Part shown: piece after piece, positions 3,523 through 19,214 of the stretch
How the letters are laid out: the number at the start of each line of letters is the position of its first letter
Position numbering within the stretch: the first letter of the stretch is position 1
IMG/VR virus record: IMGVR_UViG_3300025652_000722
Coordinates: 1-20,247 of that record
Source of the DNA: a virus
Direction: 5' to 3' (one strand)
DNA: 20,247 nucleotides
Position numbers and translations under genes: made by a program
The notes under the pieces: generated by a model
The model's database searches: none
Told to the model about the DNA's origin: nothing
The model's input: only the letters and a program-made list of their open reading frames with translations

Positions 3523-3939
3523 ATGTATAAAATTTTACTGGTTGCGGTTGCAACTTTAACTTTAGTCGCGTGTAAAGGCGAGGCAAAAACTACGTCAACT
3601 GCTATAGTGCAGTTACATGGGCATGGTGGGGTTAATCACTCTCATCAGAATGGTGGTGGGTCTCACACACATAGTAACGGCACATCGTCTAGTGCATCGT
3701 CTAGCAATTCAGAATCTTCTGGGTCAATAGGTTGCCAAAACAATTGCAATAACGGTAACAAGCCAACCAAACCAGCCAAGCCTGCGAAGCCAACCAAACC
3801 AGCCAAGCCTGCGAAGCCTGCTAAACCCGGCAAGCCTGCGAAGCCTGCTAAACCCGGTAAACCAGCCAAGCCTACTAAACCCGGTAAACCCGGCAAGCCT
3901 ACTAAACCCGGTAAACCCGGTAAACCTAAACGCCACTAA
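3523..3939 (+). CDS. Lipoprotein with His-rich segment and Lys-Pro repeat arm
   Basis: A 138-aa protein with a lipoprotein signal: a short basic N-terminus, a hydrophobic run and the lipobox LVAC with the lipidated Cys at residue 17. Next come a His-rich stretch (about residues 32-52, HGHGGVNHSH then GGGSHTHS), a Ser/Asn linker with two Cys (about 73 and 77), and from residue 80 a run of about 18 KPT/KPA/KPG triplets ending in KPKRH. The arm has no acidic residue, so the mature protein is a strongly cationic, probably extended rod tethered to a membrane. Phage lipoproteins include superinfection-exclusion factors and spanins. This one lacks a spanin-like layout, and its function is unknown. 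AAAGGG at 3511-3516 is the likely ribosome binding site. Confidence 0.75.
   Translation: MYKILLVAVATLTLVACKGEAKTTSTAIVQLHGHGGVNHSHQNGGGSHTHSNGTSSSASSSNSESSGSIGCQNNCNNGNKPTKPAKPAKPTKPAKPAKPAKPGKPAKPAKPGKPAKPTKPGKPGKPTKPGKPGKPKRH
3760..3927 (+). repeat. 9-bp tandem repeat coding for the KP[A/T/G] arm
   Basis: Degenerate 9-bp units in frame, mostly of the forms AAGCCTGCG, AAACCCGGT and AACCAAACC-type variants. Together they encode 18 KPx triplets plus a final KP. Blocks of several units recur nearly identically, which suggests growth by unequal exchange or slippage. Copy number is expected to vary between related phages. Confidence 0.85.
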
Positions 3940-14396: not shown

Positions 14397-14582
14397 ATGA
14401 AGTTAACGACGGGTGATGAAGTGAGTTTTTTTATTGGTGAGGTGGTTAGGTTGGTCAGGTTGTGGAGTATTCGAAGGACCGGCAGGGGTGAGTTGAGTCG
14501 GATGAGTGAGTACCAGTTGCGAGATATCGGTCTCACTTCGGCGGATGCAAGTAGGGAGATCCGGAAACCATTTTGGCGGTAA
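14397..14582 (+). CDS. DUF1127 domain protein (YjiS-like)
   Basis: A 61-aa protein whose last ~35 residues match the DUF1127 signature: arginine-rich, ELSRMSEYQLRDIGL, then a terminal KPFWR (residues about 57-61). DUF1127 proteins are small, common in proteobacteria, and some bind RNA and affect its turnover. They are unusual in phages. The start is uncertain: the ATG at 14397 directly follows the U-tract without a ribosome site. A GTG at 14421 with GGGTGA upstream would give 53 aa and still contain the whole domain. A terminator follows at 14606-14628. Confidence 0.7.
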   Translation: MKLTTGDEVSFFIGEVVRLVRLWSIRRTGRGELSRMSEYQLRDIGLTSADASREIRKPFWR

Positions 14583-16251: not shown

Positions 16252-18267
16252 TTATTTTTTCCAAGGCAAAACTATCGAATCCAGATTGATCGTTGGAACT
16301 GAATCTTTCAAGTGATACTCCCTATCGATTTTTATCACCAGATCTCGGTTATTGAGTGCGCGCTTTACAGCGGCCGGCTGAGGTCGCGGCTTAAACGTCT
16401 CGCAAAGTTCTAGTATATCACTATGGGTATTAACTCCACGTTTTATAGCGGACACCACAGCGCCACTGGCGCGGATATCTGCGGATTCTTTAGCCGCAGG
16501 AACTGGACCATCTTGGGCCGGCGAGTCTAGCGGGTCGTACTTGTCCATCTCGGTTATTTCATAACTCGATAGGTCCAAGTGATAGGACCGGTTAGACGCG
16601 ACACCACCGAATCTTGACTTCTTATTGAACGTTGAGATCGTCTGATATAACTCGGCTTCATATTTCTTAGAGTGTAGGAACGTCAATTCATCGACATCCG
16701 CTTCGATGTCGTTCGTGCCCTCAAACGTGATCTCGCGCATCTGTGACCCAATGACACGCTTGTTCGTATGACCCAAGATGATGATGGTCGCACCTTTAGC
16801 GCGCATGGTCCTGAAGTCGTGGAGAATGGTTTTAACTTGCTTCTTATCTATCATATCCACGAAGTTCTTGATCGTGTCGATAATAATCACGGTATCTGAT
16901 AAGTCGGTGGCCAGCGATGACGCGAGTATCAATTGTTCCCGGACGTCTTTTGACCCGGCATTATCAACGCCGGAATAATCGGGAGCTATAATTAAGAAAC
17001 TTTCTAAGTGATCAGTTTCCTCTGCGAGCGCTTTAAGCATTTGAGGGGGTGATTCGGCGTCACAGTAAAGCACTTGCATCCCATCCTCGGCAAACTGCTT
17101 GGACCAGCACTTCGCAAGCGCGGACTTGCCTGTTCCGGCCTCGGCGATGATGGCGTGTACGTGGCCCTTTGCGATCAATCCATCGACTAGGAATTCGATA
17201 TTTTTTACATCCTTGAGCTTTTTAAGGTTAGTTGATAGGTTTGAAAATAGCCGCGTGTCGATACCCTTGGACGTCATCCCAAGCTGGTCCTTAACTTGAC
17301 GCAGTCCCTCGAGGCAATGTAAGTCATTAAAGTCCGTCGGTTTCGTCGAAGCATCTGAGAACACTGGGATCATATAATTAATGCCTAGTTCCTTCTGGAT
17401 TTTCTGAGCTGACCGCAGCCCGGCGTTGAACTCTTTAAACATATCGTTATCTGGCGCGACGATTACTGTCTTATCTGAGTAGTTAGATTTAGCCCACTCA
17501 GCGACTGCGTACATCTGACCGACTGAGAACGCGACTAGAGACGTGCATCCGGTAGCCATGTGAATAGATGCGGCGGTAGCAAAACCCTCTGATACGTACA
17601 CACACTTGCCCTCGCCGTCGATTTTGTAAAGGCCCTGTTTTATCTTGCCGTTTTTCATGAACAGCTTGGAACCGTCAGCACTGATTTTCTGGTACGACGT
17701 GACTTCCGACGTCTCGCAGTTCTTTATCGGGATGACTAGGGCGCCTTTCTTATTAACCAGTGCACCGAACGGCAATATATTCTTACGCGCAAGGTACGGG
17801 TGCTCAGGGGTTGCCGGGTCGCACGCCATTAAATCGAGCGCCGCGGTCCGACCGGCTTCCGCTTGTCGATGTTTTCGTTCGCGCTCAATGCGTTTTGCGT
17901 GGATCTTATTGGCCGTTTTTATTTCTTGCGCCTCTACCGCCGTGAGGTCGCTGGAGTCGACAGATGACCAGTGAGTCTGTGATCCGTCGAGCCATGAGCC
18001 GTAAACGCCGTAGAGCGTACGTCCGTTTGACTGCAAACAATACCAGCCATCTCTATTCCCTGACTTACCTCGGGAGTCTTTACATCGAAGTATTCCGTCG
18101 CTTATATAAGCGTCGTCAATCTCAAGCCCGGACGATCTGGCATCGGACCAGAACTCAGATTGGTCTTTCTGCTTAATCTCTATCGGGTCGGCATCTGACG
18201 GGTCGATCCAAAAGGGTGCAAGCTTGCCCGATGGCAGCATGGAAAACTTATAAACATTATTGGTCAT
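16252..18267 (-). CDS. TOPRIM primase-helicase (bifunctional replication protein)
   Basis: The ATG at 18267 (MTNNVYKFSML) is preferred over an ATG at 18336, which lies in the promoter -35. GCGAG at 18279-18275 precedes it. The 671-aa product has an N-terminal domain with DGWYCLQSNGRTLYGVYGSW (about 73-92), typical of phage and plasmid TOPRIM primases. The TOPRIM core has E227 in SEG and D273-x-D275. A RecA-like (AAA_25) helicase domain follows, with Walker A AEAGTGKS (375-382), Walker B VIIIDT (460-465) and LGHTNK (498-503). No CHC2 zinc finger is visible. It would prime and unwind at the adjacent origin-like region. The downstream gene cluster has its own promoter. Confidence 0.85.
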   Translation of the reverse strand: MTNNVYKFSMLPSGKLAPFWIDPSDADPIEIKQKDQSEFWSDARSSGLEIDDAYISDGILRCKDSRGKSGNRDGWYCLQSNGRTLYGVYGSWLDGSQTHWSSVDSSDLTAVEAQEIKTANKIHAKRIERERKHRQAEAGRTAALDLMACDPATPEHPYLARKNILPFGALVNKKGALVIPIKNCETSEVTSYQKISADGSKLFMKNGKIKQGLYKIDGEGKCVYVSEGFATAASIHMATGCTSLVAFSVGQMYAVAEWAKSNYSDKTVIVAPDNDMFKEFNAGLRSAQKIQKELGINYMIPVFSDASTKPTDFNDLHCLEGLRQVKDQLGMTSKGIDTRLFSNLSTNLKKLKDVKNIEFLVDGLIAKGHVHAIIAEAGTGKSALAKCWSKQFAEDGMQVLYCDAESPPQMLKALAEETDHLESFLIIAPDYSGVDNAGSKDVREQLILASSLATDLSDTVIIIDTIKNFVDMIDKKQVKTILHDFRTMRAKGATIIILGHTNKRVIGSQMREITFEGTNDIEADVDELTFLHSKKYEAELYQTISTFNKKSRFGGVASNRSYHLDLSSYEITEMDKYDPLDSPAQDGPVPAAKESADIRASGAVVSAIKRGVNTHSDILELCETFKPRPQPAAVKRALNNRDLVIKIDREYHLKDSVPTINLDSIVLPWKK

Positions 18268-18306: not shown

Positions 18307-18336
18307 AGTATAGGCCAGCACATGACCCCAGCGCAA
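18307..18336 (-). promoter_or_regulatory. Candidate leftward promoter of the primase-helicase gene
   Basis: On the minus strand: -35 TTGCGC (18336-18331), 18-bp spacer, -10 TATACT (18312-18307). The start codon is 40 nt downstream of the -10. GGGGT and ACCCC half-sites flank it at 18298-18302 and 18325-18329. The common leader motif is absent here. Confidence 0.55.
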
Positions 18337-18428
18337 ACCAAAAGTGGGGGTTTTTTGGGTAAAATTTCAACCTTATTGAATTTTGGGGAAAATGGGGGTT
18401 TTATGGGAAAAAGGTTTTTACACTGGGT

Positions 18429-18463
18429 TTTCCTTTTAAAATCAATAACTTAGGGCGGTTTAG
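18429..18463 (-). repeat. 35-bp repeat, copy A (minus)
   Basis: On the minus strand the core reads CTAAGT, two to three variable bases, TTGATTTTAAA, one variable base, GGAAA (18428-18453). The first third, AAAAAG-like in other copies, is poorly conserved here. Spacing to copy B is 67 bp. Confidence 0.75.
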
Positions 18464-18495
18464 TCCTAAATCCTGTTTTATTGAGTTTCAGGGAA

Positions 18496-18530
18496 TTTCC
18501 GTTTAAAATCAACTACTTAGGTCACTTTTT
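18496..18530 (-). repeat. 35-bp repeat, copy B (minus)
   Basis: On the minus strand: AAAAAGTG, three bases, TAAGT, two bases, TTGATTTTAAA, one base, GGAAA. It shares the same orientation as copy A and is inverted relative to copies C and D. Confidence 0.85.
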
Positions 18531-18650
18531 AGGTTTTGGGAACTATTTTCACGAAAACGCACCCATACACCCATAATCACCATATTGCTCTCAGCTACAC
18601 ATATGCTCACGCATACACTCACCCCAGAAGAGGGGGAATAAGGGGGTTTC

Positions 18651-18674
18651 ATATATATATATATATATATATAT
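18651..18674. repeat. (AT)12 dinucleotide tract
   Basis: Twelve uninterrupted AT units, preceded by GGGGGTTTC and followed by AGAGAAAGAG. It lies close to the symmetry centre (about 18631) between repeats B and C and is the least stable duplex in the region, fitting a DNA unwinding element. Confidence 0.95.
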
Positions 18675-18731
18675 AGAGAAAGAGAATATATAGGGGAGTC
18701 CCCATTTTTCAAAAAATAGCACGCATTTCGA

Positions 18732-18766
18732 AAAAAGCGATCTAAGTCATTGATTTTAAAGGGAAA
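18732..18766 (+). repeat. 35-bp repeat, copy C (plus)
   Basis: AAAAAGCG, three bases, TAAGT, CA, TTGATTTTAAA, G, GGAAA. The last 25 bp are nearly identical to copy D. Confidence 0.85.
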
Positions 18767-18796
18767 TCCTGTCTAGGTCGCGAAATTACAGAAATA

Positions 18797-18831
18797 AAAA
18801 AGTGCTGTAAGTCATTGATTTTAAAGGGAAA
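18797..18831 (+). repeat. 35-bp repeat, copy D (plus)
   Basis: AAAAAGTG, three bases, TAAGT, CA, TTGATTTTAAA, G, GGAAA. Starts 65 bp after copy C, mirroring the 67-bp spacing of A and B. Confidence 0.85.
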
Positions 18832-18861
18832 CCGGCTTATTCCACTAAACCCGCACTTTTC

Positions 18862-18894
18862 AAATGCAGAATAAATGCAAAATAAGTGCAAAAT
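18862..18894 (+). repeat. Three tandem 11-bp iterons
   Basis: AAATGCAGAAT, AAATGCAAAAT and AAGTGCAAAAT stand in perfect register, one helical turn each, directly upstream of the promoter at 18899. They look like binding sites for an initiator or a regulator. Confidence 0.8.
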
Positions 18895-18898
18895 GGGG

Positions 18899-18927
18899 TG
18901 GACATCTGAATCTAGGTGGGTGATAAT
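18899..18927 (+). promoter_or_regulatory. Early rightward promoter from the origin region
   Basis: -35 TGGACA (18899-18904), 17-bp spacer, -10 GATAAT (18922-18927). The motif CTGAAGCAAATCAAC begins at 18936, 8 nt after the -10. Iterons abut its upstream side. Confidence 0.7.
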
Positions 18928-18968
18928 TGGAATCACTGAAGCAAATCAACTAACCGGGAGTATCGACT

Positions 18969-19214
18969 ATGATGTCAGCAGGAAAAACCGAAGCCGAAGC
19001 CAAAGCAAACGCGCTCGCCGCGTCGATCGAGAACAAGGGTTGTTATGTGACGGTCTATGCCTGTTTTGGCCTTTTTATGAAGATCTCAAAAAGACTGAAC
19101 ACGTTTGACCCATCTGACAACCTGTTTGGCGTATACTGGTTAAACGGGAAAGAGAAAAAATTCACCACTGCTCAAAAGAGAAAAGATGAGCAATCAACTC
19201 CGAGCATGTCATGA
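18969..19214 (+). CDS. Small early protein, hypothetical
   Basis: Two adjacent ATGs (18969 and 18972). GGGAG at 18956-18960 favours the first, giving 81 aa. The N-terminus is an Ala/Glu/Lys helix (KTEAEAKANALAASIE), followed by a beta region with two Cys (CYVTVYACFGLFM) and a polar Lys-rich tail. It has no signal peptide. It is the first gene downstream of the origin-region promoter and is coupled by ATGA to the next gene. Function unknown. Confidence 0.6.
   Translation: MMSAGKTEAEAKANALAASIENKGCYVTVYACFGLFMKISKRLNTFDPSDNLFGVYWLNGKEKKFTTAQKRKDEQSTPSMS

Follow-up and report, generated by a model that had tools for sequence, protein, structure and literature searches.

Four repeats that mirror one another beside an AT tract in a virus record are very probably IHF-type sites, near-ideal as judged from their sequence, and the region that holds them is a plausible replication start or two-way control switch. 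The record, a linear stretch of 20,247 bp (hereafter the window), is probably a fragment. IHF is a bacterial DNA-bending protein borrowed by many phages, and with this assignment an apparently private repeat becomes readable as an IHF-type element. The site type is already known, whereas the layout found here, with four sites in mirrored pairs, is unusual and differs from that of known IHF sites. A search of open-access text by letters found neither the long strict form of the element nor the mirrored quartet, returning only sequence strings that were unrelated, judging by title.

Identity and layout of the four repeats

The two left-hand repeats lie on the minus strand, the outer one at positions 18429-18463 (24-bp core, 18429-18452; strict IHF consensus AATCAATAACTTA at 18440-18452 on the plus strand) and the inner one at 18496-18530 (core, 18496-18519; strict consensus AATCAACTACTTA at 18507-18519 on the plus strand). 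The two right-hand repeats lie on the plus strand, the inner one at 18732-18766 (core, 18743-18766) and the outer one at 18797-18831 (core, 18808-18831), both with the strict consensus AATCAATGACTTA on the minus strand. From left to right, the cores differ from TAAGTCATTGATTTTAAAGGGAAA at 2, 3, 0, and 0 positions, and the 20,247-bp record contains no other copy. Also, a 17-base core with up to three mismatches occurs at exactly four places in the window, a number reached in none of 100 dinucleotide shuffles. The repeat families measure 33-36 bp, and the spacing within the pairs is 67 bp on the left and 65 bp on the right. The places and strands of the four 35-bp repeats and the two spacings had been proposed by a sequence-only reading of the same DNA and were reproduced here. 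That reading had also put the AT tract next to the symmetry center (18631), and the tract indeed starts 20 bp to its right, beside the center and not on it.

The pairs face outward, a layout that by itself is weak evidence of design, mirror patterns being two of the 16 orientations that four sites can adopt. Nonetheless, the near-equal spacing, together with a 55-bp inverted similarity (18495-18549 versus 18713-18767, 76%), adds support for design beyond the outward orientation.

The reverse complement of the core holds the IHF consensus WATCAANNNNTTR, and strict matches to it in the window are the four repeats only; if R is allowed for the second A, two further places match. An A/T tract stands upstream of the consensus in all four copies, in the form TTT(T)CC-(N)-TTTAAAATCAA, for a total of about 35 bp. 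IHF wraps 35 bp of DNA, and its strongest sites pair the consensus with an A-tract on the opposite side (PMC8421141). Comparison with the known sites (WATCARNNNNTTR; lambda attP H' and oriC IBS1) shows the same strict consensus in all four copies, the same 35-bp length, and the T/A-tract to the left of the consensus, along with a proteobacterial distribution and a place beside tRNA attachment sites, both of which are described below. However, the fixed sequence of the element (TTTTCCCTTTAAAATCAAnnACTTA or the TTATAA form) is far longer than the published consensus. This suggests, from the conservation of sequence, that the preferred natural IHF site could be longer and stricter than the consensus in print.

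The element in other phages and in bacterial genomes

The sequence-only reading had proposed to look for the 35-bp unit in related phages. The unit does recur, although as an IHF-type site in unrelated phages and not as a phage-specific box. The pattern AAGTNNTTGATTTTAAANGGAAA was found in 92 viral-contig stretches, compared with two for the reversed pattern, and dereplication by flanks left 59 independent sites, around which sequence information falls to noise a few bases beyond the borders of the element. ORF mapping places 56 of the 59 between genes and the remaining three at the edge of short predicted ORFs. A position that was free in this first pattern, and at which IHF demands Y, is Y in 59/59 sites. 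Moreover, when only TTGATTTTAAAGGGAAAA was imposed and three consensus positions were left free, YAA appeared at the IHF offset in 47 of 64 sites, where about two would be expected; some of these 64 overlap the first set, and 31 come from new loci, many of them with YAA. The sister form TAAGTNNTTGATTTATAAGG occupies at least 120 viral-contig stretches, corresponding to at least 66 independent sites among the matches listed. Hence the long IHF-type element, of which TTTAAAGGG and TTATAAGG are forms, is common almost letter for letter to at least 59 (TTTAAA form) and at least 66 (TTATAA form) independent phage contexts. In viral contigs (L256-L334), the sister form written as TAAGTnnTTGATTTATAAGG is commoner still than the TTTAAA form, with at least 120 stretches.

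A survey of 84,980 species genomes found the exact element in 17 stretches, of which 16 belong to Proteobacteria. IHF itself is restricted to a few phyla, Proteobacteria among them (PMC10380432). In 10 of the 17 genome matches (L100, L104, L106, L108-L111, and L114-L116), 2-7 bp separate the element from the 3' end of a tRNA-Met, -His, -Gln, or -Phe gene or of a tmRNA gene, which is the position of an attachment site, and in L116 an integrase gene directly follows it; tRNA attachment sites also carry the long element. In lambda-type attachment regions, the classical place of an IHF site is beside the tRNA end. Taken together, the consensus kept at free positions, the proteobacterial bias, and the placement at tRNA ends are the reasons for regarding the repeats as IHF-type sites.

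These same tRNA ends raise the alternative that the window region is a temperate-phage attP in which IHF sites surround a crossover core, and a near copy of the element also adjoins the tyrosine integrase gene of Agrobacterium phage Rivra. However, the region has no core resembling a tRNA end (T-loop-like), the window has no tRNA, and no integrase was found among the window proteins tested, although in a fragment such a gene could lie beyond the 20.2 kb. An attachment site is improbable here.

The large genes next to the element encode primases, DNA polymerase, terminases, ribonucleotide reductase, an SbcC-like protein, and RNA polymerase, neighbors so varied that no single phage gene family accounts for it; in three phages (L011, L022, and L083), the 3' end of a primase gene is 114-131 bp away from it. 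Of the loci that carry the element, 17 have a small-terminase-like family and 21 a large-terminase-like family, and in Vibrio phage 1271 about 200 bp, which include a tiny ORF, separate the element from the small terminase gene, as if IHF aided the binding of the small terminase at a packaging site of the cos or pac type. However, most terminase loci have the element farther off, at 0.5-3 kb and beyond intervening genes, and no terminase stands next to the window region, whose neighbors are the primase-helicase and ORFs without a family, leaving this function very improbable for the window.

The least probable reading takes the copies as promoters of a phage-encoded single-subunit RNA polymerase. 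They are conserved, oriented, and outward-facing, and TAAAGGGAAA bears a superficial likeness, on reading the sequence, to the T3/T7 start region. However, the same string turns up in phages that are not related to one another, in either orientation, and next to the tRNA genes of bacteria, its conserved free positions fit the IHF consensus, and no copy precedes the other operons of the window. The T7/T3-like promoter was rejected on account of this IHF-like conservation, the spread across phages and chromosomes, and the lack of further copies in the window.

Further copies close to the first (at least 17 of 23 positions matched, within 700 bp) exist in 13 of 70 loci of other phages, and the arrangements seen are tandem, convergent, or outward-facing, the last in L029, L030, L031, and Vibrio phage 1.049.O. 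None of these shows the two-plus-two arrangement with equal spacing, and the mirrored layout is therefore unusual, though its pieces are common. The DNA around the element has a short-repeat content of 0.20, compared with 0.105 in other intergenic DNA. Short repeats surround it in L083, L031, L067, L070, and L074, and each phage has its own (TTGACCTTT, GAGTACAAAAC, TTACAATCTTACA, and others), as though a single IHF bend could work with various initiators or repressors.

Because it is so widely shared, the long element flags nucleoprotein control points in uncultured phage genomes, that is, origins, attachment sites, and divergent control regions, and the mirrored quartet offers a concrete case in which to test whether IHF architecture can define an origin.

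The non-coding gap and its neighbors

The repeats and the AT tract sit in a non-coding gap of 701 bp between the primase-helicase gene and small ORFs that run rightward. The primase-helicase gene (Toprim_3 + AAA_25; 16252-18267, minus strand) is the first gene of the leftward operon and forms the left edge of the gap; its ATG start at 18267 was chosen by reading, and the longest frame begins with TTG at 18336. The encoded protein can be aligned along its length, at 23-24% identity, with the primase-helicases of Salicola phage CGphi29 and of Alteromonas phages PB15 and XX1924. On the right, the first ORF (81 aa; 18969-19214, plus strand) and the other short plus-strand ORFs have no family match. 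The sequence-only reading had located the repeats between a primase-helicase gene and early genes; the left-hand neighbor was confirmed by its domains, whereas the label given to the right-hand side is a presumption, since those short ORFs match no family.

The AT tract, (AT)12.5 at 18651-18675 (25 bp), is a candidate unwinding element. The least stable DNA of the window is centered on it, between the site pairs, at scales of 40, 60, 100, and 200 bp, and no (AT)10 or longer was found elsewhere in 1.8 Mb of retrieved DNA from phages and genomes, the window's own copies aside. Beside the right pair, three tandem 11-bp repeats (AAATGCAAAAT; 18862-18894, plus strand) stand one helical turn apart, being candidate initiator boxes, operator boxes, or UP-like A-tracts. 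A sigma-70-like promoter match (TGGACA-17-GATAAT; 18899-18927, plus strand) immediately precedes the first rightward ORF and agrees with the consensus at 10 of 12 positions, a match to the consensus only, and five such matches were found in the region, compared with 2.8 expected. The stretch from the primase gene to the left pair holds two G/T-rich direct repeats of 24 bp (18341-18364 and 18389-18412, plus strand) next to the primase start, and within them runs of G alternate with runs of A/T.

The gap contains no exact match to a DnaA box, and locus-specific boxes of the AAAATGGGG type are, for most word sizes, no more frequent than in shuffled sequence. Its short-repeat content is 0.24 versus 0.14 (p about 0.05), a marginal excess. 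Rfam and tRNA searches of the window gave no match. GC skew, which the sequence-only reading had suggested in cumulative form as a check of the origin, is +0.05 to the left and +0.17 to the right of the gap center, tracking gene direction with no flip; because skew follows transcription, it does not discriminate either way.

A possible replication origin or divergent control region

Our tentative reading, held at somewhat short of an even chance, is that the region is a replication origin with an AT unwinding element and IHF as an architectural factor. The host IHF would occupy the four sites, each as long as the 35 bp that it wraps, and would bend the DNA sharply at every one of them, and the region of about 400 bp could then be folded compactly as a nucleoprotein complex. 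Within each pair, the sites are 65-67 bp apart, that is, about 6.2-6.4 helical turns, and the bends would therefore be roughly in phase. Such folding would help the AT tract, the weakest duplex of the window, to open, and the opened tract may admit the neighboring primase-helicase or its loader. A more specific version, which we consider unlikely, is a bidirectional origin in which mirrored IHF pairs, and not arrays of phage-specific boxes, fold the DNA, and (AT)12 opens for a RepA-like primase-helicase. The observed basis of the origin proposal consists of the sites, the sequence and distribution that mark them as IHF-type, the low duplex stability, and the gene context.

Two features of an origin are present, namely an easily unwound AT-rich element and a replication gene, that of the primase-helicase, adjoining the gap. 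Also, in E. coli oriC the logic is one of IHF plus an AT-rich unwinding element (PMC10380432), and in both oriC and the window IHF-type sites adjoin an AT-rich, easily melted stretch. However, oriC has one primary and one secondary IHF site along with DnaA boxes, whereas the gap has four sites and no exact DnaA box. A likeness in layout is found in Vibrio phage 1.049.O (L117:3790-4620), where a divergent gap carries outward IHF-type sites (-, +, +) and an AT-rich stretch. It differs in that one of its three sites closely matches the long element (20/23), in its many GTGGCAC/GTGCCAC boxes, and in flanking genes without assigned function.

The primase genes that end near the element in three other phages speak for an origin, as does the richness in short repeats of the DNA around the element. 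Cultured relatives also speak for an origin. In Alteromonas phage PB15 and Idiomarinaceae phage 1N2-2, a repeat-rich non-coding stretch likewise adjoins the homologous primase-helicase gene, and repeated 8-mers cover 0.45 and 0.47 of these stretches, compared with 0.16 and 0.09 in shuffles. However, neither stretch contains a strict IHF site, which counts against an origin of the kind proposed here, and both differ from the gap in having dense GGTTCA or GGTACA boxes and in lying on the downstream side of the gene. The stretches (L377:19530-20000 in PB15 and L375:300-580 in 1N2-2) are found directly past the primase-helicase 3' end, and the boxes, which read GGTTCA in one phage and GGTACA in the other, surround similar sequence; by their sequence the stretches may be regarded as candidate origins with diverged box specificity.

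Against the origin, the gap shows no clear initiator boxes, having three 11-bp repeats and an overall excess that is marginal. Moreover, IHF sites have many functions, and IHF identity alone therefore gives no pointer to an origin. The candidate origin of the sequence-only reading thus retains the primase-helicase, the unstable AT center, the IHF-type sites, and the 11-bp repeats, but loses the repeat unit as a phage-specific initiator box. Relatives that lack the repeats while keeping the replication genes had been named as counter-evidence, and this holds in part: the element is absent from the surroundings of the primase in 80 loci, forming 18 distinct groups, whose primases are all distant homologues. 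The same result bears on the idea that the repeats are recognition boxes of the phage's own primase-helicase or of another private initiator. The four copies do adjoin the primase-helicase gene, but since distant relatives of the primase occur without the element, recognition by the primase itself was rejected as its role. The element also occurs in phages and chromosomes with quite different neighbors, and private boxes of any kind are highly improbable.

A divergent transcription control region that is no origin explains the anatomy of the region almost as well, and we regard it as possible, though short of probable. In this case, IHF bending would aid contacts of an activator, a repressor, or RNA polymerase at the promoters, with a leftward promoter serving the primase operon and a rightward promoter serving the small-gene operon. 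The gap does separate divergent operons, with one site pair for each, the 10/12 promoter match at 18899-18927 precedes the first rightward ORF with the phased 11-bp repeats upstream of it, and in other phages the element is often between genes of other functions. However, the promoter-like matches are near chance, no regulator gene was recognized beside the gap, and the AT tract would have no obvious role. The origin and the control region are compatible, and possibly both apply; the present evidence separates them poorly.

In a search for close relatives, no DNA match was found among cultured phages and none by primase peptides, and the search with the helicase returned a single find, a 4.7-kb fragment of 100% identity. 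The window helicase is closest to those of PB15, XX1924, and 1N2-2 (about 41%), and since these relatives infect Alteromonas or Idiomarinaceae, this suggests a gammaproteobacterial host. Other window proteins are a Sak4-like ATPase (AAA_24), a DUF669/single-strand-binding-like protein, a Cas4-type exonuclease, and a phosphoesterase. The window also encodes a 61-aa protein with a DUF1127 domain (14397-14582, plus strand) and a 138-aa lipoprotein-like ORF (3523-3939, plus strand), in which consecutive Pro-Ala/Gly/Thr-Lys repeats make up the second half.
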